A program made the position numbers and the translations under genes. Shown piece after piece: positions 4,295 through 27,333 of a stretch of 64,000 bases of DNA; the stretch's first letter is position 1, and every line of letters starts with the position of its first letter. Source of the DNA: Corallococcus soli (lineage in GTDB: Bacteria > Myxococcota > Myxococcia > Myxococcales > Myxococcaceae); the NCBI RefSeq assembly GCF_014930455.1, contig NZ_JAAIYO010000001.1, positions 496,001-560,000 of the forward strand. The letters are read 5' to 3'. The notes under the pieces were generated by a model that saw nothing but the letters and a program-made list of their open reading frames with translations, ran no database searches and had not been told where the DNA came from.

Positions 4295-5790
4295 CGCGGG
4301 CGGGAGCGCTGGCGCTGCTGTTGCTGCTCGGCCTCAGCGCGTGCGCGAAGCCGCCCGGTGAGACCCCCGAGGTGCGCGTGGGCTCCAAGAAGTTCACCGA
4401 GTCCGTCATCCTGGGCGAGCTGGTGACGCAGGTGGCGAAGGACGCCGGAGCGCGGACCACGCACCGCCGCGAGCTGGGCGGCACCACGGTGCTGTGGGAG
4501 GCGCTGCGCCGGGGCGAGCTGGACGTGTATCCGGAGTACACCGGCACGCTGCGCCAGGAGCTGTTCGCCGGCCGCTCGCTGCCCGACGACGCCGCGCTGC
4601 GCAAGGCGCTCGCGGCGGAGGGGCTGCGGATGAGCGCGTCGCTCGGCTTCAACGACACGTATGCGCTGGGCATGAAGGAGGCGGAGGCCGAACGGCTGGG
4701 CATCCGCCGCATCTCGGATTTGAAGCAGCACCCGGGGCTGCGCGTGGGCTTCAGCAACGAGTTCATGGAGCGCGGGGACGGCTGGCCCGCGCTGCGCGAC
4801 GCGTATGGCCTGCCCCAGCGCGACGTGAGCGGCCTGGACCACGACCTGGCCTACCGGGGCCTGGAGAGCGGCGCCCTCCAGCTCACGGACCTGTACTCCA
4901 CGGACGCGGAGATCGCGGCGTACGGCCTGCGCGTGCTGGAGGACGACCGGCGCCACTTCCCCGCGTACGACGCGGTGCTGCTCTACCGCGAGGACCTGGA
5001 GGCCAAGGCCCCCCAGGCGCTCCAGGCGGTGCGCCGGTTGGAGGGCGCGCTGACGGAAGCGCAGATGGTGAAGCTCAACGCCCGCGCGCGGCTGGAGCGC
5101 GTGCCCGAGGCCCAGGTGGCGTCCGACTTCCTCCAGGCGTCGCTGGGCCTGTCGACGCAGGTGCGCACGCAGGGCACCGCGTCGCGTCTGTGGCAGCGCA
5201 CGCGGGAGCACCTGTTCCTGGTGGGCGTGTCGCTGCTGGGGGCCATCGCGCTGGCCATCCCGTTGGGCGTGGTGGCCGCGCGCCGTCCTCGGCTGGGGCA
5301 GGCGGTGCTGGGGCTGTCCAGCGTCATCCAGACGGTGCCGTCGCTGGCGCTGCTGGTGTTCATGATTCCGCTGCTGGGCATCGGCTCGAAGCCGGCCATC
5401 GCGGCGCTGTTCCTCTACAGCCTGCTGCCCATCGTGCGGAACACGACGGCGGGGCTGGGGGGCATTCCGTGGGAGGTGCGCGAGTCCGCGGAGGCGCTGG
5501 GCCTGCCGGCGAGCGCGCGGCTGTGGCGCATCGAGCTGCCCATGGCGGCGCCGTCCATCCTCGCGGGCATCCAGACGGCGGCGGTCATCAACGTGGGCAC
5601 GGCCACGCTGGGAGCGCTGGTGGGCGCGGGCGGCTACGGCCAGCCCATCCTCACCGGCATCCGCCTGGACGACGTGGGGCTCATCCTGGAGGGGGCCGTG
5701 CCGTCAGCGGTGCTCGCGCTCGCCGTCAGCGGCCTCTTCGAACTCATCGCCCGGACGGTGGTGCCCCGGGGGCTGCGCGTGCGGGGGTAG
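4291..5790 (+). CDS. Substrate-binding protein/permease fusion of osmolyte ABC transporter
   Basis: A 499-residue two-domain protein. Residues 1-20 are a lipoprotein signal with lipobox LSAC. Residues about 25-290 are an OpuAC/OpuBC-type binding domain, starting with the hallmark GSKKFTES and containing the DVYPEYTGT segment. Residues about 305-499 are the inner-membrane permease with several hydrophobic helices and an EAA-like loop (EVRESAEALGLPASARLWRIELP). Binding-protein/permease fusions are known in this family, but most have the permease first; here the binding domain is N-terminal, as in some OpuCB/CC-like fusions. With the coupled ATPase it makes a complete two-gene importer. An N-terminal lipid anchor on a polytopic protein is unusual; the segment could instead be a first transmembrane helix. 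Confidence 0.87.
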   Translation: MTRAGALALLLLLGLSACAKPPGETPEVRVGSKKFTESVILGELVTQVAKDAGARTTHRRELGGTTVLWEALRRGELDVYPEYTGTLRQELFAGRSLPDDAALRKALAAEGLRMSASLGFNDTYALGMKEAEAERLGIRRISDLKQHPGLRVGFSNEFMERGDGWPALRDAYGLPQRDVSGLDHDLAYRGLESGALQLTDLYSTDAEIAAYGLRVLEDDRRHFPAYDAVLLYREDLEAKAPQALQAVRRLEGALTEAQMVKLNARARLERVPEAQVASDFLQASLGLSTQVRTQGTASRLWQRTREHLFLVGVSLLGAIALAIPLGVVAARRPRLGQAVLGLSSVIQTVPSLALLVFMIPLLGIGSKPAIAALFLYSLLPIVRNTTAGLGGIPWEVRESAEALGLPASARLWRIELPMAAPSILAGIQTAAVINVGTATLGALVGAGGYGQPILTGIRLDDVGLILEGAVPSAVLALAVSGLFELIARTVVPRGLRVRG

Positions 5791-5798
5791 GGCCCGGG

Positions 5799-6770
5799 CT
5801 ACACCGGCTCCACGCTGGACGCGGGGGCCGGGGAGGGCTCGAAGCGCGGTGCATCCTCCGCGAGCCCCGCCGCGCACAGGCACACCAGGCACATCCACAC
5901 GCAGTCGGCGAGCAGCAGGTGGATGAGCTGCATGGCCACCGGCGCCAGCAGCACCAGGTTGATGACGCCCACGCACAGCTGCGCGACGTACATGCCGGTG
6001 AGCAGCATGGACGCGCGCTTCACCTCCGGCGAGGGGCGCAGCCGGGCCACCCACCGGCCCACCAGCACCAGCAGCGCGCCCACGCCCACCGCGAACACCG
6101 GGTGCAGCACGCGCAGGCGCAAGAGCAGGTGCGCCGTCTCCGACATGTCCTGGCGCAGGCCGTCCGCCAGGCTGGTGGCGGGGAACAGCGTGTCGCCCAG
6201 CGCGGCCACCGCGCCGCTGATGCCCAGGATGCCCATGCCGGCCACGCCCAGGCCCAGCATCACGGCCACCGGGCCCTGGCCCTTGATCACCATGCGCGCC
6301 CGGCCAGCGGCGGCCCACACCACCAGCGTCTGCGCGCCCACCAGCAGGAAGGTGTTGGTCAGGTGCAGGCCCATCCACACCGCGCGCCACATGGACGCGT
6401 TCTGCGCCACATACTTGAGCAGCACGATGCCCGCGCCGACGAGCCCTTCGGTGAGCATGAAGAACAGCGCCCAGCCCGCGGCGTGCCGCGCGGGGTGTCC
6501 CTTGGGGACGGCGCGGCGGGCCCACACATACAGGGCGACGGCGAGCAGCGTGGCCACGCCGCTGGTGAGCCGGTGGGTGTATTCGATGAGGGTCTGGAGG
6601 GTGGGGGCGCGCGGCACCACCTCGCCGTTGCAGACGGGCCAGTGGTCGCCGCAGCCCGCGCCGGAGCCGGTGGCCCGCACGAACGCGCCCCAGAGGATGA
6701 CGGCCAGGGTGTAGACGAGGACGCCCAGACTGAACCACTGGAAGCGGCGGGACGCGGCGGGATGGGTCAT
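5799..6770 (-). CDS. ctaA: Heme A synthase (COX15/CtaA)
   Basis: A 323-residue polytopic membrane protein with about eight hydrophobic segments. The first helix is followed by GAFVRATGSGAGCGDHWPVCNG, a stretch diagnostic for COX15/CtaA with a conserved Cys pair. The heme-binding EYTHRLTS follows, and later HLTNTFLLV and HPVFAV supply further His ligands. The enzyme oxidises the C8 methyl of heme O to the formyl group of heme A for cytochrome c oxidase. The ATG at 6770 is preferred over one four codons upstream. The gene converges on the osmolyte transporter with only 8 bp between stops. No ctaB or oxidase subunit lies nearby. Confidence 0.9.
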   Translation of the reverse strand: MTHPAASRRFQWFSLGVLVYTLAVILWGAFVRATGSGAGCGDHWPVCNGEVVPRAPTLQTLIEYTHRLTSGVATLLAVALYVWARRAVPKGHPARHAAGWALFFMLTEGLVGAGIVLLKYVAQNASMWRAVWMGLHLTNTFLLVGAQTLVVWAAAGRARMVIKGQGPVAVMLGLGVAGMGILGISGAVAALGDTLFPATSLADGLRQDMSETAHLLLRLRVLHPVFAVGVGALLVLVGRWVARLRPSPEVKRASMLLTGMYVAQLCVGVINLVLLAPVAMQLIHLLLADCVWMCLVCLCAAGLAEDAPRFEPSPAPASSVEPV

Positions 6771-6916
6771 CGTCCCCCGCAACTACCGCATCCCCCTCGG
6801 CCGGGCCACCGCGCGGGAGCGGCCACCTGTCGGCTGCCCGCCATGCCCCCAACACCCGGCCTTATGGGACGGGCCGGCCAGTCCCCAAGCCTGGGGGAAG
6901 TTGTTAGCGTCACCGC

Positions 6917-8044
6917 GTGCCCCGCGACCGTGAAGCGCCGCCTGCCTCCCCGTCCCCCCCTGATGCGGCCGAGCGCCTGCGTCGGCTGGAGGCGGCCATC
7001 GAGGAAGGCCGCGCGCGCAAGGACGCCGCCCTGGAGGCGTGGGTGCGCCGGATGGGTCGCCTGCCGACCGAGAGGGAGCGCGACCGCTGGGAGCGGGAGT
7101 GGGAGCGAAGCGCGGAGCAGGAGCGTCGCCGGTGGGAGAAGCAGTGGGAGCGCGAGTCGAAGGACGCCCTGCGGCGCGCGGAGCGGCAGGCGAAGCGGGA
7201 TGCCTACGTCTCCCAGCAGAAGGCCTGGCGGGAGGCGAAGCGCGCGGAGAAGGAGGCCCGTGAGGCAGCCACGCGCAACCCGGTGCTGGGCGTGGGCTTC
7301 CTCATCGTCGCGCTGGCGTGCGTGGCCACCGCCGCGCGGATGTGGTCGCAGTACTGGTGGCTGTTGTTCGTGGCGCTCGCGTTCTTCCAGAAGGCCGCCC
7401 GGCATCTGCGTCCCCGCAACAACCCGCTGCTGACGCGCGTGGAGGAGCCCCCAGCCCAGGTGCTGCCCGTGGAGGCGAAGGTGCCCGAGGCGCCGAAGGA
7501 TCCGCGCCTCGTCCGGGTGGACGCGGTGTGCGACAAGCTGCTGGCGGAGTTCCGCGCGGCGCCGGGCGTGTTGCAGGAGTTCGTGCGTTCACCCGAGCGC
7601 ACCGTGCAGGACCTGCGCAAGAGCTGCCACGAGCTGCTGCGCCGCGAGCGGGAGCTGCGCACGGTGGCCGCGCCGGAGGACGTGCAGCGACTGGGAGAAG
7701 AGCGCAAGGGGCTGGAGCGGCGCTGGGCCCAGGAAGAGGACGTCGTGGTGCGCGACCGGCTGCGCGCGGCGTTGCAGGTGCTGGACGAACAGGTGCGCCA
7801 GCGCGCGGAGCTGACCCGGGCGGCGGACCGGCTGGAGGCGGAGTACACGCGGCTGGCCTACACGCTGGAGAACCTCTACGCGCAGGTGGTGCGTGCGCGC
7901 TCGGCGGACAGCGCGGACTCGGACGTGGCGGGCGCGGGCCTGCGCCGCAGCGTGGAGCAACTGGGCGCGGAGATGGACGCCGTCACCGAGGCCCTGGAAG
8001 AGGTGCACGGCGCACCCATGGATGGGCGGGTGCGCACGCGCTGA
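6917..8044 (+). CDS. Coiled-coil protein with central membrane hairpin, unknown function
   Basis: A 375-residue protein from a GTG start. I do not recognise the family. Residues 1-115 are extremely rich in Arg, Glu and Trp, with repeated RxxWExE patterns typical of a long charged coiled coil. Two adjacent hydrophobic stretches at about 120-155 can form a membrane hairpin. The rest (about 185-350) is again heptad-like and charged, with Leu/Arg/Glu periodicity. Both soluble parts should lie on the same side, probably the cytoplasm. It diverges from ctaA, with 146 bp between starts. The C-terminal region is vaguely like 5-bromo-4-chloroindolyl phosphate hydrolase/toxic-anion-resistance proteins, but I would not assign it. 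Confidence 0.7.
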   Translation: MPRDREAPPASPSPPDAAERLRRLEAAIEEGRARKDAALEAWVRRMGRLPTERERDRWEREWERSAEQERRRWEKQWERESKDALRRAERQAKRDAYVSQQKAWREAKRAEKEAREAATRNPVLGVGFLIVALACVATAARMWSQYWWLLFVALAFFQKAARHLRPRNNPLLTRVEEPPAQVLPVEAKVPEAPKDPRLVRVDAVCDKLLAEFRAAPGVLQEFVRSPERTVQDLRKSCHELLRRERELRTVAAPEDVQRLGEERKGLERRWAQEEDVVVRDRLRAALQVLDEQVRQRAELTRAADRLEAEYTRLAYTLENLYAQVVRARSADSADSDVAGAGLRRSVEQLGAEMDAVTEALEEVHGAPMDGRVRTR

Positions 8045-11344: not shown

Positions 11345-11480
11345 GGCTCGCGCTGATGGCCCCCGCGCATGAAGAAAGAGCCCCCGCCCGCGCCCCCTGG
11401 CGCGTAGGGTCTGCGTCCTCCGTGCCTCCCTCCCACGCACAGCCCCGCCGTCCGCTCCCGCCCCTTCCCCGGAGGCGCGG

Positions 11481-13241
<1,761 letters not shown>

Positions 13242-13271
13242 CACGGGCGCGGGCCGTGGTAGTCAGGGCCC

Positions 13272-13940
13272 GTGGATCTCCAAGCGCAACGCCGCCAACA
13301 GCACAAGCTGCGGCTGTCCTGGATGCCGTGGCTCTACTTCGTCCTCAAGCCGCGCCACCATGAGTGGGCGCACGCGTGGCAGCGCGAGGTGCAGGACCGC
13401 CTGCGCGAATTGGAGACCGTTGAAATCGCGGAGGGGTGCTTCATCGCCCCGGAGGCGCGCATCTTCGCGGAGCCCGGACGCACCGTCAGGATTGGACCTG
13501 GGTGCAGTATCGCCGCGGATGTCTTCATGCACGGCCCCGTGGAGCTGGGCCCCCACGTCAGCCTCAACGCGCGCGTCAACCTGGACGGCGGCGTGGCCGG
13601 CATCCGCATCGGGGAGGGCACCCGCATCGCCAGCGGCGCCACGCTCTACGCGTTCGACCACGGGCTCGCGCCGGATCGCCCCGTGCGCGGCCAGCCCGTC
13701 ACGTCGAAGGGCATCGTGATCGGCCAGGACGTCTGGGTGGGCGCCAACGCGGGCATCACCGACGGCGTCACCGTGGGCGACCACGCCGTCGTGGGCATGG
13801 GCGCCATCGTCACCCGCGACGTGCCCCCCTGGGCCATCGTGGGAGGCTCCCCCGCCCGTCTGCTCGGGGACCGCCGAGACCGGCCACGCTCTGGAATCCC
13901 GGGAGGCTGGGAGCCTCCGGATACTAAGGGGAAACCCTGA
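13272..13940 (+). CDS. Left-handed beta-helix (hexapeptide) acyltransferase
   Basis: A 222-residue protein from a GTG start, 30 bp after the deacetylase gene and probably in its operon. Residues about 50-195 carry hexapeptide repeats of the form (I/V)GxGxx, for example VRIGPGCSIAADVF, IRIGEGTRIASG, IVIGQDVWVGANAGI and VTVGDHAVVGMGAIV. They end with VPPWAIVGGSPARL, as in maltose/galactoside O-acetyltransferases. A His in FDHG may be the catalytic base. The family moves acetyl or other acyl groups from CoA to sugars or small molecules. The acceptor is unknown. A 7-bp hairpin lies inside its 3' end (13902-13918). Confidence 0.85.
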   Translation: MDLQAQRRQQHKLRLSWMPWLYFVLKPRHHEWAHAWQREVQDRLRELETVEIAEGCFIAPEARIFAEPGRTVRIGPGCSIAADVFMHGPVELGPHVSLNARVNLDGGVAGIRIGEGTRIASGATLYAFDHGLAPDRPVRGQPVTSKGIVIGQDVWVGANAGITDGVTVGDHAVVGMGAIVTRDVPPWAIVGGSPARLLGDRRDRPRSGIPGGWEPPDTKGKP

Positions 13941-13956
13941 GTCCCAGGCGGGTCCA

Positions 13957-13987
13957 TTGACTTTGAAACATTCGAGCGACTTATGCT
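13957..13987 (+). promoter_or_regulatory. Possible sigma70-type promoter for the PAS/GAF kinase
   Basis: TTGACT at 13957-13962 and TATGCT at 13982-13987 are separated by 19 bases, in an unusually AT-rich stretch between two genes. They lie about 100 bp before the favoured start of the kinase. The spacing is longer than ideal, so this is tentative. Confidence 0.3.
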
Positions 13988-16427: not shown

Positions 16428-18503
16428 ATGCGTAAGCGGACCGCTCGCCTCGCTCCCGTGCTCGGGTTGCTGCTGGGCAGCGTATTGGCGCTGGGGCCGG
16501 GCCACCCGGGCCTGCTGCCGGCCGCGCGCGCGGCGACACCGCCTGTGGCGGACGCCTGCGCCGACTCCGCGACCTTCCTGGTGGGGGCGGCGCGCTCCGA
16601 CATCACGGGCCCCGCGGCGGAGGTGGGGATGATGGGCTACGCGCAGGTGGCGCAGAAGACGGAGGGCATCCACCTGCGGCTGTACTCGCGCGCGTTCGTC
16701 ATCGCCTCGCCGTGCAATGGCCGCCGCGTGGCCATCGTCAGCGCGGACCTGGGGGAGCTGTTCCAGGCGGTGAAGCAGCAGGTGGTGGAGCGGCTGCGCG
16801 CGAAGCTGGGGGAGGTGTACTCCGACGACAACGTGCTCCTGAGCGCCACGCACACGCACGCGGGGCCGGGCGGCTACAGCCACTACACGCTCTACAACCT
16901 GTCCACCCTGGGCTTCGTGCCGCAGAACTTCGAGGCCATCGTCTCCGGCATCGTGGACTCCATCGTCCGCGCCAACGACCGGCTGGCCGAGGGCACGCTG
17001 CGCCTGGCCTCCGGCGACCTGCGCGGCGCGAGCGCCAACCGCTCCCCGGAGGCCTACCTGCGCAACCCCGAGTCCGAGCGCGCCCGCTACCCGGACGACG
17101 TGGACACCCGCATGACGCTGCTGCGGTTCACGCGCGCGGACGGGCAGGAGCTGGGGCTCATCAACTGGTTCGCCGTGCACGCCACGTCCTTCGGCAACAC
17201 CAACCCCTTCATCAGCGGCGACAACAAGGGGCTGGCCTCGCGCTACTTCGAGGCGGGGGAGGGGGGCCTGCGGCCCGGCGGGCCGGACACCTTCGTCGCG
17301 GCCTTCGCCAACGCGAACGAGGGCGACGTGACGCCCAACCTGCTGGGCGGCACGAATGGCGGCGGCGCGGACGACTTCGAATCCACGGCCCTGGCCGCGC
17401 GCAAGCAGTACGACTTCGCCGCGCACCTGTGGGCCACCGCCGCGATGCCGGTGCTGGGGGGCGTGGACTACCGGCACACCTACGTGAAGATGGACGCGGT
17501 GGACGTGGCGCCCGCGTTCACGGACGGCACGCCGCGCCGCACGTGTCCCGCGACCATCGGCGTGTCGATGCTGGCGGGCGCGGAGGACGGCCCGGGCTTC
17601 GGCGCGGAGGGCGCGACGTGCGAGTCCGTGCACGACCTGTGGAACCAGTTCACCTGCTCGCTGGTCACCACGCCCTGTCAGGCGGAGAAGCCCATCGTGC
17701 TGGAGATGGGCGCGATGAAGCCCTACCCGTGGACCCCGGAGGTGCTGCCCCTGCAGCTGGTGACGGTGGGGCCGCTGGCGCTGGTGGCCGTCCCCTTCGA
17801 GCTCACCACCATGGCGGGCCGGAGGCTGCGCGACACGGTGCGCGCGCAGCTCCACGGCACGGGCGTGACGGACGTAGTCATCGCGGGGCTGTCCAACGCG
17901 TACGCGGGCTACGTGTCCACGCGCGAGGAGTACGCGCGCCAGGACTACGAGGGCGCGTCCACGCACTTCGGGCCGTGGACGCTGGCGGCGCTCCAGCAGT
18001 CCTTCACGGGGCTCGCCGGGGCGCTGCGCGACGGGACGCCCGTGTCACCGGGGCCCACGCCCCGGGACCTGCGCAAGGCGGTGGTGGGCCTGCAGCCCGG
18101 CGTGGTGTTCGACGACAAGTACCTGTGGGTGGACTTCGGCGACGTCGCGGAGGAGGCGAAGCCCGCGTACGCGCGGGGCGACACGGCGAGCGCCACCTTC
18201 TGGTCGGGGCATCCTCGCAACAACCTGAAGACTGGCGGCACGTTCCTGCGGGTGCAGCGGCGGGAGGCGGACGGGACGTGGCGGGACGTGGCGCACGACG
18301 GCGAGGGCGGCGCGCGCTACCACTGGCAGCGCGAGTACTGCGTGCCCACGCTCGGATGTTCGAAGGTGCGCATCGACTGGCCCATCCCGGCGGACACGGC
18401 GCCGGGCACCTACCGGCTGGTGCACGAGGGCCACTGGAAGTCCGGCTGGGACGGGCGCGTGCACCCGTACTCGGGGAACTCGCGCCCGTTCACCGTGCGG
18501 TAG
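16428..18503 (+). CDS. Neutral/alkaline ceramidase homologue (secreted)
   Basis: A 691-residue protein from ATG 16428 with GGAGG upstream. A Sec signal ends near ARA at about residue 35. Residues from about 48 to 540 match neutral ceramidases: GAARSDITGPAAEVGMMGYA, the zinc region SATHTHAGPGG, VHATSFGN and SGDNKG. A C-terminal beta-sandwich (about 550-691) follows, as in the bacterial enzyme. The family cleaves the amide of ceramide to sphingosine and fatty acid. Myxobacteria make ceramides, and predation on other cells offers another substrate source. In the motif that is GDVSPN in Pseudomonas ceramidase, with the catalytic Ser, this protein has GDVTPN (Thr302). Activity may therefore differ. 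Several cysteine pairs suggest disulfides. Confidence 0.85.
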   Translation: MRKRTARLAPVLGLLLGSVLALGPGHPGLLPAARAATPPVADACADSATFLVGAARSDITGPAAEVGMMGYAQVAQKTEGIHLRLYSRAFVIASPCNGRRVAIVSADLGELFQAVKQQVVERLRAKLGEVYSDDNVLLSATHTHAGPGGYSHYTLYNLSTLGFVPQNFEAIVSGIVDSIVRANDRLAEGTLRLASGDLRGASANRSPEAYLRNPESERARYPDDVDTRMTLLRFTRADGQELGLINWFAVHATSFGNTNPFISGDNKGLASRYFEAGEGGLRPGGPDTFVAAFANANEGDVTPNLLGGTNGGGADDFESTALAARKQYDFAAHLWATAAMPVLGGVDYRHTYVKMDAVDVAPAFTDGTPRRTCPATIGVSMLAGAEDGPGFGAEGATCESVHDLWNQFTCSLVTTPCQAEKPIVLEMGAMKPYPWTPEVLPLQLVTVGPLALVAVPFELTTMAGRRLRDTVRAQLHGTGVTDVVIAGLSNAYAGYVSTREEYARQDYEGASTHFGPWTLAALQQSFTGLAGALRDGTPVSPGPTPRDLRKAVVGLQPGVVFDDKYLWVDFGDVAEEAKPAYARGDTASATFWSGHPRNNLKTGGTFLRVQRREADGTWRDVAHDGEGGARYHWQREYCVPTLGCSKVRIDWPIPADTAPGTYRLVHEGHWKSGWDGRVHPYSGNSRPFTVR

Positions 18504-18509
18504 CGGCCG

Positions 18510-19355
18510 TCAGTCGTCGTCGTCGCAGGTGCCGTCGGGGTTGCACTTCTTGTCGCACTTCTTGCACGCCTGGCCGTTCCTGCCGCACTGGTTCCTGTTG
18601 GGGGACTCGATGCAGCTGTTGCGGTCACAGCAGCCGTCGCAGGTGGACGGGTCGCAGACGCACTGTCCGCCCTTGCAGGCGAGTCCCGGGCCGCACGCCG
18701 GCCCGCCGCCGCAGATGCACCGGCCGCCGAAACACGCGCTCGCGTTGGCGCCGCACGCCGGTCCGTTGCCGCAGCCACAGGTTCCCTGGGCCGTGCAGGT
18801 GTCGGCCTTGTCTTCCGTGCAGTCCTCGCAGGCCACGCCGCCCACGCCACAGGTGCGGGCCGTGCGCGACGTGCACACGCCGTCGCGGCAGCAGCCGTCC
18901 CGGCAGTCCATGCAGAAGGTGCTGGTGCCGCCATCCGGCTTCGTGCCGGAGCCCAACTGGACGGTGACCTCCACCTCGTAGCCGTCGCGCACGGTGGCGC
19001 TGGCCTCGCCGACGGCGAGCACGGTGCCGTCGCGCAGGCCCTCCACGCGCACGGTGGCCTGCGCGCCGTTGGCGGCGTCACCCAGCAGGACGCGGAAGGT
19101 CTCGCCGTTCTGGAGGGTGCGGTCCGCGGCCTCGGGGATCATCGAGGCGGGCACGTCCATGCCGCCCGCCACGGTGCCGGAGACGCGCAGCTGCGTGAGG
19201 TTCAGCGAGGGCTCGAACTCGGTGGTGACGAAGAGCGCGGTGCCCGCGGCGGCGGCCGGGTCGCGGCAGGCGGCGAGCGCCACCAGCGACAGGATGCCGC
19301 TGGCCAGCAGGAGCCGGACGAAGGCCCGGCCAGGGGTTGCTCCTACGATGATCAT
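18510..19355 (-). CDS. Cysteine-rich surface lipoprotein
   Basis: A 281-residue protein from ATG 19355. A long signal peptide ends in a good lipobox (LAAC), so it is lipid-anchored. Residues about 35-150 form a beta-rich domain without cysteines, with a TGTALFVTTEF start and a VRVEGLRDG segment. From about residue 150 to the end it is extraordinarily Cys-rich, with CxxC, CC and CxC spacings such as DCRDGCC, CEDC, CGCG, CICGGG, CDGCC and CKKCDKKC. It ends in four Asp. Such disulfide-knot tails are common in secreted proteins of myxobacteria, often on the cell surface, and their function is unknown. The gene diverges from gluconokinase and converges on the ceramidase gene. Confidence 0.75.
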   Translation of the reverse strand: MIIVGATPGRAFVRLLLASGILSLVALAACRDPAAAAGTALFVTTEFEPSLNLTQLRVSGTVAGGMDVPASMIPEAADRTLQNGETFRVLLGDAANGAQATVRVEGLRDGTVLAVGEASATVRDGYEVEVTVQLGSGTKPDGGTSTFCMDCRDGCCRDGVCTSRTARTCGVGGVACEDCTEDKADTCTAQGTCGCGNGPACGANASACFGGRCICGGGPACGPGLACKGGQCVCDPSTCDGCCDRNSCIESPNRNQCGRNGQACKKCDKKCNPDGTCDDDD

Positions 19356-19542
19356 GATGGCGCGCAGGGTAGCGGCTTCACGGCGCGCCGTGAAAATGCG
19401 CATCGTGAAGAGGGGGCCGGGCGTTGAGCAGCGGACGCTCATACGCGGTGTCCGGCGCGCCATGCGCACGCGCTGCTCCGCGTGGCGTCAGGCGTGGGAA
19501 GGTCGCGGTATGGGAGCGCGCTCGCGAGGAGACGGCAACGGC

Positions 19543-20058
19543 ATGGTGGTCATCGTCATGGGCGTTTCGGGCACCGGGAAGTCCACGGTGGGCAGGGCGC
19601 TCGCGGAGCGGATGGGGTGGGCCTTCGAGGACGCGGACGACCTGCATTCGGAGGAGAGCCGTCAGAAGATGGCCTCGGGCACCCCGCTGACGGACGCGGA
19701 CCGTCAGCCCTGGCTGGTGCTGCTGCGCGCGCGGATGGAGAAGGCGCTCGCCCAGGGCGAGCCCCTGGTGCTGGCGTTCTCCGCGCTCAAGCGCAGCTAC
19801 CGCGAGCGGCTCTCCGTGGACGCGAAGCGAGAGCGCTGGGTGTACCTGCACGCTCCCTCGGAGGTCATCCAGGAGCGGCTCCAGCGCCGCGAGGGCCACT
19901 TCATGCCGCCCCGGCTGCTGGTCAGCCAGCTGGCCGCCATGGAGCCACCGGAGGACGCGCTCGCGGTGGACGTGACGCCGTCACCCGACGAGGTGGTGCG
20001 GCGCATCCTGGACGGGCTGGGCCTGGAGCCCGCCGCGAACGGTTGCACCGACGAATGA
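19543..20058 (+). CDS. gntK: Gluconokinase
   Basis: A 171-residue P-loop kinase starting at ATG 19543; an in-frame ATG at 19510 would add eleven residues. Walker A is GVSGTGKST near the N-terminus. It is followed by FEDADDLHSEESRQKMASGTPL and DADRQPWL, the substrate-binding stretch typical of GntK. Later come FSALKRSYRERL and a lid region GHFMPPRLLVSQLAAMEPP. The enzyme phosphorylates D-gluconate to 6-phosphogluconate for the pentose phosphate or Entner-Doudoroff routes. Length is normal. No gluconate permease or GntR regulator is adjacent. It is the last high-GC gene before the low-GC island. Confidence 0.9.
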   Translation: MVVIVMGVSGTGKSTVGRALAERMGWAFEDADDLHSEESRQKMASGTPLTDADRQPWLVLLRARMEKALAQGEPLVLAFSALKRSYRERLSVDAKRERWVYLHAPSEVIQERLQRREGHFMPPRLLVSQLAAMEPPEDALAVDVTPSPDEVVRRILDGLGLEPAANGCTDE

Positions 20059-20133
20059 CCCGTTCGGCAGCTACCAGTTGCCAAGGGAAGAAGTGACTTT
20101 ATCTACGTTTGACTACATCGCCTGGAATGGAGG

Positions 20134-21054
20134 ATGCTAACCTTCGCTCTGAACGGTATATTGAACGTGCCTATGTCGACTTCCGCAGTGCTTCCCTCTC
20201 TTTTCTCCCTGCCCACTGGAGGCGGGTTGTTTGCGCTCGTCGAGGTCGTTCTTTCCTTGGTGAAGCGGGATCGAATGACGGCGGAAGAGCGGGCATTGCT
20301 TGAGCATGTTCGCGGATTGAGCGGTACGTTCGGTTGCTACATCCTCGAAGCTGAGAACAGGGATGACCTGCTCGCCAGAGTCGATGCCGTTGTGGAAGAC
20401 CCTGGATTCCATGTGGCTCAGCATGGGGCAGAGGAAGTGAGCTTTGGCATTAGTCATCTTCCCGAGATAGCCGACGAAATAGAACAGCACTCCAATGATG
20501 ATGCAGTTCCCCTAGCTATGGCGCAGGTCCTTGGGGCATCGTCGATACCATACTTACGCGAGCTGCATCGCAACCTCGCAGAGACGATGCGATGTCTTGG
20601 CTACTTCCTGAGCGAAGTGGGGCCAGACATCAGCATGAGCGAGTTCCCTGATGCTTCAACGGGCGAAGGCGGTATCTCAGCGGGCAGAAGCAATGATCCG
20701 CTCGCATTCCTCAGTGACCCGGACGTACCGATACCGGTTGCGGAAGCGTTGCTTGCCTCATTACGACTCAACGTACTTTGTCTATCGCTTGTTGCCCTAC
20801 TCCTCCATCAAGGCGTTGCAGAGCCCTGGCTCAAACTTGCCATTGCCGAGATACTCGCGGACTCAAGCATGCGAGGCTTGGCGCTTATGGCGGCTCTATC
20901 TAACGCCCAGGTTTCTACAGACATTTTGCCGATTGACGAGCGCCTAGATCCATCTGAGTTTGAGCAACACTCGCTGGCTGTGCAAGCGGCTTATAAGCGA
21001 TTCAACATGGCTGCGGAGCGATCGGGTGAACCGGTATACCCCTCCTCCTCCTAA
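20134..21054 (+). CDS. Unrecognised protein in low-GC island
   Basis: Up to 306 residues. The ATG at 20134 has GGAGG too close to be ideal; the ATG at 20173 (MSTSAV) is an alternative. I do not recognise the family. The sequence looks alpha-helical and acidic. One hydrophobic segment lies near the N-terminus (LFALVEVVLSLV) and another near residue 235 (LNVLCLSLVALLLHQG); either could be membrane-associated or buried. The C-terminus has an amphipathic AAYKRFNMAAE helix. Codon use differs from the host genes. It overlaps the next gene by 29 bp, so the two are probably coupled and functionally paired, perhaps as antitoxin or effector with the PemK-like partner. That role is inference. Confidence 0.7.
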   Translation: MLTFALNGILNVPMSTSAVLPSLFSLPTGGGLFALVEVVLSLVKRDRMTAEERALLEHVRGLSGTFGCYILEAENRDDLLARVDAVVEDPGFHVAQHGAEEVSFGISHLPEIADEIEQHSNDDAVPLAMAQVLGASSIPYLRELHRNLAETMRCLGYFLSEVGPDISMSEFPDASTGEGGISAGRSNDPLAFLSDPDVPIPVAEALLASLRLNVLCLSLVALLLHQGVAEPWLKLAIAEILADSSMRGLALMAALSNAQVSTDILPIDERLDPSEFEQHSLAVQAAYKRFNMAAERSGEPVYPSSS

Positions 21055-21445
21055 GCCTCAGTTGCGTGAACGCGGTCTGGTGATGGTGGATGTTGGGGGC
21101 AAGCCTCATCCGTCCATCGTGGTCCGCCTTTTTCCCACTGAGGAACGAGCGGTAGTTATATACGGTACAGGGACCAAACGCGTTGAGTTGGCAGGCATTG
21201 AGGTGCCGAGTAACTCAGTAGCTGGTAAAGCGCTAAGACTTTCCAAGGATACATTCTTCTACGCAACAGGTCTGCGCAGTGTCCGATTGGGACATGTCCA
21301 GGTGCTATTGGGCAGCTGCCCGCCTGGGCTGTTTTTGCAGGTGCGGTACTTGGTCGAAGGAGCCTTGTCTCTCCTCTCATCAACTGAGCAGACAAAGGAT
21401 CTTTCGGAGGATGCACTCCCTCGACCAGTTGATTCGGGAGCCTAA
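21026..21445 (+). CDS. Possible PemK/MazF-like toxin in low-GC island
   Basis: A 139-residue protein from GTG 21026, preferred because GGAG lies seven bases upstream; a TTG at 20960 would add 22 residues. After a Pro-rich start, residues about 18-110 resemble the MazF/PemK beta-barrel. RGLVMVDVGG is followed by PHPSIVVRLFP and an IYGTGTKR strand. Later comes a segment like the usual R-x-V-x-x-x-R-L-G (LRSVRLGHVQ) and a C-terminal helix. MazF-type proteins cleave RNA and are neutralised by a partner encoded just upstream. Similarity is by pattern only and catalytic residues cannot be confirmed. The upstream partner is far larger than typical MazE antitoxins, so this could be a different system. 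Confidence 0.5.
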   Translation: MNRYTPPPPKPQLRERGLVMVDVGGKPHPSIVVRLFPTEERAVVIYGTGTKRVELAGIEVPSNSVAGKALRLSKDTFFYATGLRSVRLGHVQVLLGSCPPGLFLQVRYLVEGALSLLSSTEQTKDLSEDALPRPVDSGA

Positions 21446-21484
21446 GTCGAGTTGAAGGCCGCAACGAACCGCGAGTAGCCCGCC

Positions 21485-22114
21485 TCAGGGCACCGGGTGT
21501 TCGACGGTGGCGCCCAGGCGCTCCAGCAGCTCGCGGTACCACGCGAAGGAGCTGGCGCTCCGGCCCGCCAGCTCCTTCGTGCCCCACAGCAGCGTGAGAG
21601 TGCGGCGCGTGGCGCCGTCCGTCTTGGTGCGCTGGGCGTCCTTCACCGCGTTGGCGCAGGGGCCGGCCGCGTCGAAGAGGCACAGCAGGCCCTCCAGGTC
21701 GATCTCCTGTCCGGAGGCGTTGAAGACGTAGCGGTCGCCCTGGATGGCGGTGGCGACGCGGAAGGGCGCCTGCGCGCGGTCCAGGTCCACCACGCTGATG
21801 GGCAGGCCGCTGTGCAGCGATACGGCGTTGCACGCGTCCACCGCGGCGTTGATGGTGGAGAGCGAGCCGTCCCCGGACGCGCGCACCAGGTACTCGGAGG
21901 CGGGCTTGCCCCGGCCGGTGGGCTTGTAGCCGCCGTGGCGCAGCAGGTCCCGCACGGCGCCGCGCACGGCGTCGTCGCTCTGGAGGGGCGCTGCGGCGCC
22001 GGGCTTCAGGAGGTCCTGGAGCCACCCGGGCGCGGGCAGCTCTCCCAGGGGGGCGGGAAAGGTGGACGTGAAGGCGACGAGGTCGAGGAGGGGATGGGGG
22101 TCGACGGTCAGCAC
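21485..22114 (-). CDS. B3/B4 (PheRS beta editing-like) domain protein
   Basis: A 209-residue cytoplasmic protein. The core (about 70-180) contains SEYLVRA, LSTINAAVDACNAVSLHSGLP and VDLDRA. These are the hallmarks of the B3/B4 domain that in phenylalanyl-tRNA synthetase beta forms the editing site for mischarged Tyr-tRNA(Phe). Stand-alone copies exist in many bacteria. They are thought to act in trans on tRNA or on amino-acid adducts, but this is not established for most. The gene starts only 30 bp from the divergent cupin gene, so the two promoters overlap. Confidence 0.8.
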   Translation of the reverse strand: MLTVDPHPLLDLVAFTSTFPAPLGELPAPGWLQDLLKPGAAAPLQSDDAVRGAVRDLLRHGGYKPTGRGKPASEYLVRASGDGSLSTINAAVDACNAVSLHSGLPISVVDLDRAQAPFRVATAIQGDRYVFNASGQEIDLEGLLCLFDAAGPCANAVKDAQRTKTDGATRRTLTLLWGTKELAGRSASSFAWYRELLERLGATVEHPVP

Positions 22115-24329: not shown

Positions 24330-25769
24330 CTACTCGAACAGCTTGCTCGCGAGCCGCGCCAGCCGCTGCGCCTTGCCCCGGTAGGGTGGGAAGAAGAGGT
24401 TCGTGAAGGCCGTGCGTCCCTGGCGCACCACCGCGCGCTCGTGGCTGAACGCCTTGAAGCCCGCCTCCCCGTGGTACGCGCCCACGCCGCTCTGGCCGAC
24501 CCCACCGAAGGGCAGGTGCGGGTTCACGTTGTGCAACACCACGTTGTTCACCACCGTGCCGCCCGCGCTCGTCTCCGTGAGCAGCCGCTCCACGGTCGCC
24601 TCGTCCTGGCTGAACACATACAGGGCCAGGGGCTTCCCGCCCGCGCGCACCTGCGTCACCACTTCGTCCAACGACTCGAAGCGCAGCACCGGCAGCAGCG
24701 GCCCGAAGATCTCCTCCCCCATCACCGGCGCCTCCGGCGTCACGTCCGCCAGCACCGTGGGCGCGATGTAGCGCGTCTCCGCGTGCACGCCGCCGCCCGC
24801 CACCACCCGCGCCCCTTGCGCCACCGTGCGGTCCATCAGCCCGCTCACCCGCCGGAACGCCCCGTCATCCACCATGCGGCAGAAGTCCGGTGTCGCCCGG
24901 CGCGCCTCCTCCGACTTGCCGTAGAAGCGCTCCAGCGCGTCCTTCAGCCCCGCGAGCAGCGCCTCCTCCTTCGACGCGTGCACCCAGACGTGGTCCGGCG
25001 CGATGCACGTCTGCCCCGCGTTGAGGAACTTGCCCCACACAATCCGCTCCGCCGCCGTGGCCACGTCCGCTGACGCATCCACGATGACCGGCGACTTCCC
25101 GCCCAATTCCAGCGTCACCCCCGCCAGGTGCCGCGCCGCCGCCTCCATCACCCGGCGGCCCACGCGCGGCCCTCCGGTGAAGAAGAAGTGGTCGAACGGC
25201 AGCCGCAAGAGCGCCTCGCCCACCTCCGGCCCGCCCTCCACCAGCGCCACTTCGTCCGCGGGGAACACGTCCCGCAGCAGCTGCGCCAGGAAGCGCGCCG
25301 TGCCCGGCGTCTTCTCACTGGGCTTGCACAAGACGGCATTGCCCGCCGCCACCGCCGCCACCAGCGGCGACACCAGCAGGTGGAACGGGTAGTTCCACGG
25401 CGCCAGGATGAGCACCACGCCCCGGGGCTCCGGGTGCACTTCACTCTTCGTGCCCGCGAGCAGCAGCGGCGCGCCCACCCTGCGCGGCTTCATCCACGCC
25501 TTCAGGTGCTTCTGCACGTGCGCCAGCTCCAGCAGCACGGGGAGGATTTCGGTCGCCTCCACCTCCGCCGCGGGCTTGTGGAAGTCCTCGTGGAGCGCGT
25601 CCGCCAGCTCCTCGCGGCGCTCCAGGAGCAGCGCCTTGAGCTTCTCCAGCCGCGCCAGGCGCTCCTTCGGCCCCGTCTTCGCCAGCGCCCACCGGCGCGC
25701 CTGCAGGCGGTCGAACACCTCCTGCAGGTCCGCCGGGACCAGGGCCTCTTCCACTGACACCACGCGCAT
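24330..25769 (-). CDS. Class-3 aldehyde dehydrogenase (paralogue A)
   Basis: A 479-residue aldehyde dehydrogenase; ATG 25769 has GAGGAG just upstream. The class-3/fatty-aldehyde/coniferyl-aldehyde type is shown by the short N-terminus, APWNYPFHLLVSPL, PSEKTP, FFTGGPRVGR, the Glu in LELGGKSPVIVD, the Cys in NAGQTCIAPDHVWV and a C-terminal LPFGGVGQSGVGAYHGEAGFKAFSHERAV. A hydrophobic-aromatic tail (FTNLFFPPYRGK) could touch the membrane, as in fatty aldehyde dehydrogenases. It lies downstream of a close paralogue, 65 bp away, and both probably answer to the TetR regulator upstream. Likely role: oxidation of long-chain or aromatic aldehydes to acids. Confidence 0.87.
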   Translation of the reverse strand: MRVVSVEEALVPADLQEVFDRLQARRWALAKTGPKERLARLEKLKALLLERREELADALHEDFHKPAAEVEATEILPVLLELAHVQKHLKAWMKPRRVGAPLLLAGTKSEVHPEPRGVVLILAPWNYPFHLLVSPLVAAVAAGNAVLCKPSEKTPGTARFLAQLLRDVFPADEVALVEGGPEVGEALLRLPFDHFFFTGGPRVGRRVMEAAARHLAGVTLELGGKSPVIVDASADVATAAERIVWGKFLNAGQTCIAPDHVWVHASKEEALLAGLKDALERFYGKSEEARRATPDFCRMVDDGAFRRVSGLMDRTVAQGARVVAGGGVHAETRYIAPTVLADVTPEAPVMGEEIFGPLLPVLRFESLDEVVTQVRAGGKPLALYVFSQDEATVERLLTETSAGGTVVNNVVLHNVNPHLPFGGVGQSGVGAYHGEAGFKAFSHERAVVRQGRTAFTNLFFPPYRGKAQRLARLASKLFE

Positions 25770-25834
25770 GCCGGCTCCTCTTTCCACGCCAGGGCCACCC
25801 CGCCGGGTGAACACCCCGCGAACCGGCGAATTGC

Positions 25835-27286
25835 CTACTCCAGCATCCGGGTCGCGCGGGAGGCCCATTCCTGGGTCTTTCCCCGATACGGCGGGAAGAA
25901 CACCGAAGCCAGCGACTTCATCCACTGGACCATCACCGCCCGCTCATGGCTGAAGGTCTTGAACCCGTAGTGCCCGTGGTAGTTGCCCAGGCCGCTCATG
26001 CCCACCCCGCCGAACGGCAGGTTCGGGTTCGCCACGTGGATGAGCACGTTGTTCACCACCACCCCGCCGGACGTCGTGTGCTGGAGCACCTCCTCCACCA
26101 TCTTCGAGTCCTGCGAGAACACGTACAGCGCCAGGGGCTTCCCGCCTTCGTTGATGTGGGCGTAGACCTCCTCGCGCCGCTCGTACGTCAGCACCGGCAG
26201 CACCGGCCCGAAGATTTCCCCCTCCATGATGGGCATCGCCTTCGTCACTCCGGACAACACCGTGGGCGAGATGTACCGGGACGGCCCGTCCGCCGTGCCG
26301 CCCGTCTCCAGCCTCGCCCCCGCGGCGACCGTGCGGTCCAACACCTCCTTGAGCCGCTTCCAGGCGGCCGGATCCACCACGCGCGCCAGGTCCGGGCTCG
26401 CCTGCCGCTCCTCCTCCGTCGTGCCGTAGAAGCGCGTCAGCACCGCCTTGAACGCCTCCAGGAAGGCCTGCTGCCTGGACGCCGGCACGTAGATGTAGTC
26501 CGGCGCCACGCACGTCTGGCCCGCGTTGATGAACTTGCCCCAGGCCAGCGCCTCCGCCGTCGCCGTCAGGTTCGCGGACTCGTCGATGATGACCGGCGAC
26601 TTGCCGCCCAGCTCCAGCGTCACGCTGGAGAGGTACTTCGTCGCCGCCGCCATCACCTTGCGGCCGATGTTCGGGTTGCCCGTGAAGAAGAAGTGGTCGA
26701 ACGGGTGCTGGAGCAGCGCCTCCGCCACGTCCGCGCCGCCCTCGAAGGCCGCCACCTCGTTCTCCGGGAACAGGTCCCGGGTGAGCTGCGCCAGGAAGCG
26801 CGACGTGTGCGGCGTCTTCTCACTGGGCTTGAACATCACCGCGTTGCCCGCCGCGATGGCCGCGATGAGCGGCGCGACCAGCAGCTGGAACGGGTAGTTC
26901 CACGGCGACAGGATGAGCACCACGCCCTTGGCCTCGTAGCGCACGTGGCTGGACGCCCCCTTGAGCGTCAGCGGCGTCGCCACCCGCTTGGGCTTCATCC
27001 ACCCCTTCAGGTGCTTCACCGTGTGGTTCAGCTCCTCCAGCGTGGGGTGGATCTCCGTCAGCTCCACCTCCATGGCCGGCTTGCGGAAGTCCTGGTGGAT
27101 GGCCTCCGCCAGCTGCGCGCGGCGCTGGATGATGGCCTCGCGCAGCTTGCGCAGCCGCGCGATGCGCTCCGCGGTCGTGCTGCGCGACAGGTTCCAGCGG
27201 TTCGCGCGCTGGGCCTCGAACACCGCGCGGATGCGTTCGATCTCCGCGGAGGGCTGGGGGAGGAGGGACGCGACGGCTTCCAACAT
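25835..27286 (-). CDS. Class-3 aldehyde dehydrogenase (paralogue B)
   Basis: A 483-residue aldehyde dehydrogenase. ATG 27286 is preferred because GGAG lies seven bases upstream; an ATG at 27298 would add four residues. Motifs match paralogue A: SPWNYPFQLLVAPLIAA, PSEKTPHTSRFLAQL, FFTGNPNIGR, the Glu in LELGGKSPVIID, the Cys in NAGQTCVAPDYIYV and LPFGGVGMSGLGNYHGHYGFKTFSHERAV. The tail ends FFPPYRGKTQEWASRATRMLE. The two proteins are similar throughout, so the pair arose by tandem duplication. The gene follows the TetR gene by 47 bp and is probably in one operon with it. Confidence 0.87.
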   Translation of the reverse strand: MLEAVASLLPQPSAEIERIRAVFEAQRANRWNLSRSTTAERIARLRKLREAIIQRRAQLAEAIHQDFRKPAMEVELTEIHPTLEELNHTVKHLKGWMKPKRVATPLTLKGASSHVRYEAKGVVLILSPWNYPFQLLVAPLIAAIAAGNAVMFKPSEKTPHTSRFLAQLTRDLFPENEVAAFEGGADVAEALLQHPFDHFFFTGNPNIGRKVMAAATKYLSSVTLELGGKSPVIIDESANLTATAEALAWGKFINAGQTCVAPDYIYVPASRQQAFLEAFKAVLTRFYGTTEEERQASPDLARVVDPAAWKRLKEVLDRTVAAGARLETGGTADGPSRYISPTVLSGVTKAMPIMEGEIFGPVLPVLTYERREEVYAHINEGGKPLALYVFSQDSKMVEEVLQHTTSGGVVVNNVLIHVANPNLPFGGVGMSGLGNYHGHYGFKTFSHERAVMVQWMKSLASVFFPPYRGKTQEWASRATRMLE

Positions 27287-27333
27287 GACGGGCTCCATTT
27301 CGCAAAAGAACGGCCGGTACTGCGGGGTGTGGG

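Follow-up and report, generated by a model that had tools for sequence, protein, structure and literature searches.

The closest described systems to the gene pair studied here are the MazF/PemK toxins and their partners. Arg25 and Thr48 are described as the catalytic residues of MazF from B. cereus (PMC7354611), and Gly18, Glu20 and Arg25 are reported to be essential in MazF-Da (PMC8634880). The partners described for MazF are of the AbrB, RHH and XF1863 types (PMC2701414). MazF-mx of M. xanthus is reported to be an active RNase that cleaves GU^UGC, and its partner MrpC is encoded elsewhere (PMC5408214). We analysed a gene pair within a 64-kb stretch of the Corallococcus soli genome (hereafter the window). 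An earlier note, made from the sequence alone, had described the pair as a recently acquired foreign island in which a MazF-like gene is coupled to a gene of unrecognised kind. When searching the open-licence literature, no prior report of this gene pair was found.

The pair lies on an insert of 1,424 bp with a GC content of 55.0%, compared to about 71% for the chromosome (Table 1). When the window was scanned in segments of 1,424 bp at 200-bp steps, all segments below 64% GC overlapped the insert. In a sample of the genome (20 stretches of 20 kb, 200-bp steps; 400 kb of 9.4 Mb), none of the 1,860 segments of the same length was as low (mean 71.0%, sd 2.8, minimum 58.1%), which bears out the earlier observation that the base composition falls well below that of the flanks. 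Another low-GC stretch (58-60%) is present on the same chromosome (G000:C1 at about 105,000-107,200; L138 at about 5000-7200).

Compared by BLAST with the three closest relatives (G011, G015 and G008), the match stopped at 20039-20040 and restarted at 21465, with a right-flank identity of about 95% to all three. The insert is thus real, but both of its edges had previously been placed about 20 bp too far to the right (20059-21484). On the empty site the left and right matches overlap by 5 bp in G011 and by 4 bp in both G015 and G008; in the window strain the insert has a 5-bp direct repeat, CGAAC, on both sides. The left neighbour of the module is a gntK-like gene on the plus strand with matches to P-loop kinase families. 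Its frame ends at 20058 and the last 18 nt (20041-20058) are derived from the insert, while the displaced native gntK tail is found on the far side, at 21465-21478. The right neighbour is a B3/4-domain gene on the minus strand (21485-22114), so that the junction is convergent. No recombinase gene was found within the module and no convincing terminal inverted repeats were seen for the insert. The 64-kb window harbours no tRNA, and the Rfam scan gave nothing at gathering scores. In the left flank, identity to the nearest relatives drops to 83-90% over 18400-20000; recombination in this part was considered but is not claimed, as the other genomes too show poor conservation there. Further to the right lie two adjacent aldehyde-dehydrogenase-like genes, named by eye (24330-25925 and 25835-27298, minus strand); against three other Corallococcus at this locus, cross-matches between the two copies were at 72-73% DNA identity.

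Table 1. Features of the inserted module and its edges (positions in the window)
Feature	Position	Strand	Basis or remark
Inserted module	20041..21464		absent in 12/16 Corallococcus; BLAST breakpoints; GC
Left CGAAC repeat copy, 3′ end of gntK	20036..20040		match overlap on empty site
Putative -10-like box TATATT	20157..20162	+	upstream DNA alignment
Gene 1	20173..21054 (293 aa, preferred ATG) or 20134..21054 (306 aa)	+	acidic, predicted all-helical
GGAG, ribosome-binding-like, 7 nt before gene 2 GTG, within gene 1	21015..21018	+	7-locus comparison
29-nt gene overlap	21026..21054	+	same length in 7/7 loci
Gene 2	21026..21445 (139 aa, GTG start)	+	basic, MazF-fold prediction
Right CGAAC repeat copy; native gntK tail then runs to TAG ending 21478	21465..21469		BLAST, sequence

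Gene 1 and gene 2 were each found in the identical 7 of 96 Myxococcaceae genomes. Four of these carriers are Corallococcus genomes, and all four harbour the module at the gntK-B3/B4 junction. The remaining carriers are an Archangium (G020), a Myxococcus (G067) and a member of a third genus (G033). In these the module lies at three unrelated loci, and the blastn match to the window was confined to the module. In the other 12 of the 16 Corallococcus genomes, which lack the module, gntK is next to the B3/B4 gene, at a distance of -22 to +22 nt. The sister genomes therefore do not all share an island of matching base composition. The earlier view of a recent acquisition by this strain is retained in so far as the island is foreign and absent from close relatives; a confinement to this strain is contradicted by its presence in seven genomes.

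Within the phylum, gene 2 was found in 7 of 195 genomes. A profile search of genome contigs with gene 2 detected four Myxococcaceae loci and missed G012 and G033; its same-genus matches were Corallococcus sp. AS-1-6 and C. interemptor. The contig search with the single gene 1 protein gave no match although two carriers at 61-62% identity lay in the searched set, so the contig searches are insensitive. With the gene 1 profile, matches at E ≤ 0.5 were obtained in 22 of the 195 genomes, namely the seven true loci and 15 weak ones. The best weak match (G031, E 6.5e-5) was discarded, as it lies inside a 776-residue open frame that by eye is a sensor histidine kinase; the other 14 had E values of 0.01-0.46. 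Neither the viral contigs nor the phages searched contained a relative of the module genes, and the plasmids gave no match for gene 2 and one chance match (E 1) for gene 1. Overall, no convincing homologue beyond the Myxococcaceae was found in the phylum, viruses, phages or plasmids. In the Archangium locus (L018), a tandemly duplicated two-gene unit (11442-13963, minus strand) lies about 2.4 kb upstream of the module. By eye, one of its proteins resembles a lipoprotein and has a nuclease-like end, and the other, its partner, has a Cys motif; the unit may be similar to the kin-discrimination toxin-immunity pairs of myxobacteria.

The arrangement of the two genes is strongly conserved. The 29-bp overlap described in the earlier note is exactly 29 nt long in all seven loci and gene 2 starts with GTG in each of them, preceded by GGAG in six (GAAG in G020). 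Two co-directed, overlapping genes that are found only together correspond to the layout of type II toxin-antitoxin systems, and the proposal of a tightly coupled two-gene unit held for all seven loci. From this layout it seems likely that gene 2 is translationally coupled to gene 1 via the overlap. Upstream of gene 1, the DNA alignment revealed in 7/7 loci a box resembling TATATT (TAGATT in G067), with an ATG following after 10 nt; a general promoter scan predicted 0 sites at gene 1, where 0.7 would be expected by chance. The box may represent a promoter from which a near-leaderless mRNA would start gene 1 at 20173. This ATG is preferred because it follows 10 nt after a box kept in all seven loci. 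In most aligned loci an ATG or GTG lies about 39 nt further upstream, in frame with the conserved ATG, so a gene 1 protein of 306 aa is also possible. In the Archangium draft genome (G020, L018) the reading frame of the conserved ATG is not that of the remaining gene 1 sequence, and this copy may therefore be broken or mis-sequenced.

Compared to the window proteins, the homologues share 43-63% identity for gene 1 and 58-77% for gene 2. Antitoxins are often less conserved than their toxin partners. In all seven pairs the two proteins have opposite charges, with pI values of 4.35-4.88 for gene 1 vs 9.23-9.83 for gene 2 (4.5 vs 9.5 in the window). Both genes are under purifying selection: in a comparison of 12 genome pairs (out of 21) for both genes, dN/dS was 0.09-0.33 in 23 of 24 comparisons, with many dS values near saturation, and dS was undefined in the remaining one (G000-G067, gene 2). 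Spurious open reading frames that overlap by chance in low-GC DNA could explain why neither window protein matches a curated family. However, this explanation is refuted by the conservation of the proteins in seven genomes, the dN/dS values and the invariant overlap, and we give it practically no credence.

How the four Corallococcus carriers came to share one junction was examined with two trees, based on rpoB (15 of the 16 genomes, as none was found in G013) and on the flanks (16/16). The carriers require three changes on either tree, and well-supported branches alone force two changes on the rpoB tree and three on the flank tree. As few changes were needed in 128/500 and 122/500 label shuffles, respectively, and the carriers do not cluster on the trees. 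A single old insertion into a Corallococcus ancestor, followed by vertical inheritance, fast evolution and loss in most species, would account for the shared junction, and a gain followed by two losses could make up the three changes. On the other hand, in the six carrier pairs dS was 0.65-1.92 in the module compared to 0.10-0.33 in four flanking genes (gntK, B3/4, cupin and ABC), and for G014-G012 it was 1.2-1.3 compared to about 0.1. Faster evolution and a change in composition could inflate the module dS, but amelioration of low-GC DNA would hardly do so tenfold. Moreover, the breakpoints differ: the gntK tail lies to the right of the insert in the window strain, whereas in G012 the gntK stop lies to its left. 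Because of the several-fold higher dS and the different breakpoints, repeated acquisition fits better than one old island, and we consider a single insertion unlikely. These comparisons agree best with separate acquisitions, or with homologous recombination that replaced alleles at one junction, and the module has probably come into the gntK-B3/B4 junction on more than one occasion. M. xanthus is reported to be naturally competent (PMC8538405).

The gene 2 protein of the window matched no family in Pfam (0 matches at E ≤ 10), NCBIfam, PADLOC or PHROGs. PF02452 (PemK_toxin) was reached by two of the seven gene 2 homologues, with a best E of 0.016; the window protein was not among them and gave no PF02452 match above the cut-off. 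An hhalign comparison of gene 2 with 12 PF02452 relatives was weak (E 0.008, probability 4.9). Matches of single gene 2 homologues to NCOA6_TRADD-N (E 0.13), BPL_C (E 0.19) and one NCBIfam model (E 0.14) were at chance level and were rejected, and a sequence search against solved structures was also at chance level (flagellin, E 1.2).

Structure prediction was more informative for gene 2. With an alignment of seven rows, the best AlphaFold2 model reached a pLDDT of 74.5 (others 35-68; only the best two above 60). It shows strands and a C-terminal helix in the MazF order, forming an SH3-like barrel, with a low-confidence tail (124-139). Foldseek gave 81 matches at E ≤ 0.001, with a best E of 3.7e-5 to MazF-mt3; the best 50 of these 81 we take to be all MazF-type. 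The best VIA-align match was MazF of B. cereus (Z 13.1, rmsd 2.8, 103 residues aligned), and most of the 50 matches listed are MazF/PemK toxins. On the basis of the model and both sets of matches, gene 2 is predicted to have the MazF fold, in agreement with the resemblance suggested earlier; a structure unlike the MazF barrel was not obtained.

CcdB shares the MazF fold, and CcdB of Vibrio fischeri (3jsc) appears at rank 41 of the VIA list with Z 11.1. Gene 2 might thus be a CcdB-like gyrase poison and gene 1 its antidote. Against this, we take the 40 higher rows, with Z up to 13.1, to be of MazF type, with the exception of 7bye, which is titled only 'toxin-antitoxin complex', and His/Arg-Pro is kept at the MazF catalytic position. 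The Z difference of 2 between the MazF and CcdB matches is not large; still, a gyrase poison appears quite improbable to us, and a MazF-type effector is favoured.

The resemblance is less complete at the active site. At the position of the catalytic Arg, before a conserved Pro, five of the seven rows have His (His28 in the window) and two have Arg. The Pro itself is invariant in 7/7 rows, as is a GTGT motif that closes beta3; Thr48 and Thr50 of this motif lie near the expected catalytic Thr, and in the weak alignment Thr50 falls opposite the relatives' second Thr. In the model, beta1 (17-23) and beta2 (26-36) are joined by two residues and the RNA-gating loop is missing; the weak alignment with PF02452 relatives has a gap of seven columns here. 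Gly18 and Glu20 of MazF-Da would fall within this missing loop. Of the MazF-type RNase that gene 2 was earlier said to resemble, the fold was recovered but the catalytic Arg and the beta1-beta2 loop were not.

With His for the catalytic Arg in five of seven rows and no beta1-beta2 loop, gene 2 may not cut RNA. Its MazF fold could have lost catalysis or been put to another use, as an RNA-binding regulator or protein partner, with the pair forming a regulatory or stress unit instead of a toxin-antitoxin. The seven-column gap where the residues essential in MazF-Da lie (PMC8634880) would agree with this, as would the reported regulatory role of an 'inactive' type II pair (PMC11826091). However, His need not abolish activity, because His-Pro instead of Arg-Pro was found in 35/35 PF02452 loci inspected (34 Myxococcaceae and one from another family; the count omits more divergent PF02452 matches, and those of them that were aligned include Arg-Pro) and MazF-mx, which likely shares the His, is reported to cleave RNA at GU^UGC (PMC5408214). 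The invariant Pro and GTGT also argue against a loss of function. We hold a dead or repurposed gene 2 to be unlikely. Each of the 16 Corallococcus genomes has a single PF02452 (MazF) gene, for example at G000:C2:507684-507995 (L078).

The gene 1 protein of the window matched no family in Pfam, NCBIfam, PADLOC or PHROGs. It is acidic and predicted to be all-helical (pLDDT of the best model 64, others 36-41), and no DNA-binding domain was seen. Its homologues gave only chance-level matches in Pfam, PADLOC and NCBIfam, and those to DUF7185 (E 0.15, a single homologue), AbiEi (E 0.024, one member only) and three NCBIfam models (E 0.04-0.12) were rejected. The sequence search against solved structures was at chance level (Rna15, E 0.021). 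With the weak model as query, the best match had an E of 1.2 in the PDB and of 0.28 in BFVD, and the best VIA Z of 6.6 lay inside the stated background for helical models; because the model is weak, gene 1 may contain a hidden known fold. When tested as a partner of the MazE (AbrB-fold) or RHH type, the window protein gave no match, and its low-confidence helical model had no structural match. Gene 1 has three to four times the usual size of a MazE antitoxin and, in line with the earlier note, shows no convincing resemblance to the families searched. It is a candidate antitoxin or sensor-inhibitor and would probably serve as antidote or trigger of gene 2.

We consider it fairly probable that the insert is a self-contained two-gene addiction or defence module, similar to type II toxin-antitoxin systems, in which gene 1 would inhibit the effector, gene 2. 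This reading is based on the occurrence of both genes in the same seven genomes, at three unrelated loci outside Corallococcus, and on the 29-nt overlap, GTG start and upstream box kept in 7/7 loci. The predicted MazF fold, the opposite pI values, the low dN/dS and the lower conservation of gene 1 support it further. What counts against it is a large gene 1 without a DNA-binding domain, a gene 2 with His for Arg and without the loop, the weak PemK profile match, the weak models and the empty promoter scan. Transcription would start from a promoter inside the module and give an mRNA that is perhaps nearly leaderless. The acidic, helical gene 1 protein would be translated first, with gene 2 following by coupling through the overlap in a fixed ratio. 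The basic gene 2 protein would be the effector; it may be toxic and would most likely act on RNA. Gene 1 would bind gene 2 and keep it inactive, and module loss, stress or phage might disturb the complex and release gene 2. The phage-defence role that had also been suggested received no direct support: PADLOC models gave no credible match to the module proteins (none for the window, and only the AbiEi match mentioned above for the homologues), and the neighbours in the window and in the three other genera look by eye mostly like housekeeping genes.

More tentatively, the module may represent a new selfish or defence family of the Myxococcaceae, which would combine a loop-less, His-site MazF-fold effector with a large, all-helical protein of a new kind as antitoxin or sensor. 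In Corallococcus it would repeatedly invade one preferred convergent-gene junction, and outside this genus it would use other sites, in all cases without a recombinase of its own. Its partner gene adds a family that was missed by the profile libraries searched, and gene 2 raises the question whether RNase activity can persist in a MazF barrel that lacks the RNA-gating loop and carries His in place of the catalytic Arg. The 12 empty and four filled sites, with several-fold excess divergence inside, make a compact case for the movement of an addiction module without a recombinase in naturally competent predatory bacteria.

Compared to the MazF/PemK proteins (PF02452; MazF-mt3 5hk0, S. aureus 4mzp and B. 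cereus 7bxy), gene 2 has the same SH3-like barrel and a helix at the C-terminus (Z 12.9-13.1), and shares the His/Arg-Pro and the Thr-rich end of beta3. It differs by an identity of only 11-16% to these three structures, by the failure of the window protein to match PF02452, by the lack of the beta1-beta2 loop, by mostly His for the catalytic Arg and by a tail of low confidence (124-139). The pair was kept out of MazEF, as neither the catalytic Arg nor the beta1-beta2 loop was found when tested. MazF-mx is likewise a myxobacterial MazF and likely shares the His at the Arg position, as do all 35 PF02452 loci inspected. In contrast to gene 2, the PF02452 gene of Corallococcus is a separate single copy that clears the cut-off in 16/16 genomes, and gene 2, unlike MazF-mx, has an adjacent, overlapping partner. 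With MazEF and other type II operons the module has in common two overlapping genes, the first acidic and the second basic, a patchy distribution and an inserted position, whereas its partner protein of about 290 aa, predicted to be helical, gave no convincing match to known antitoxin families.
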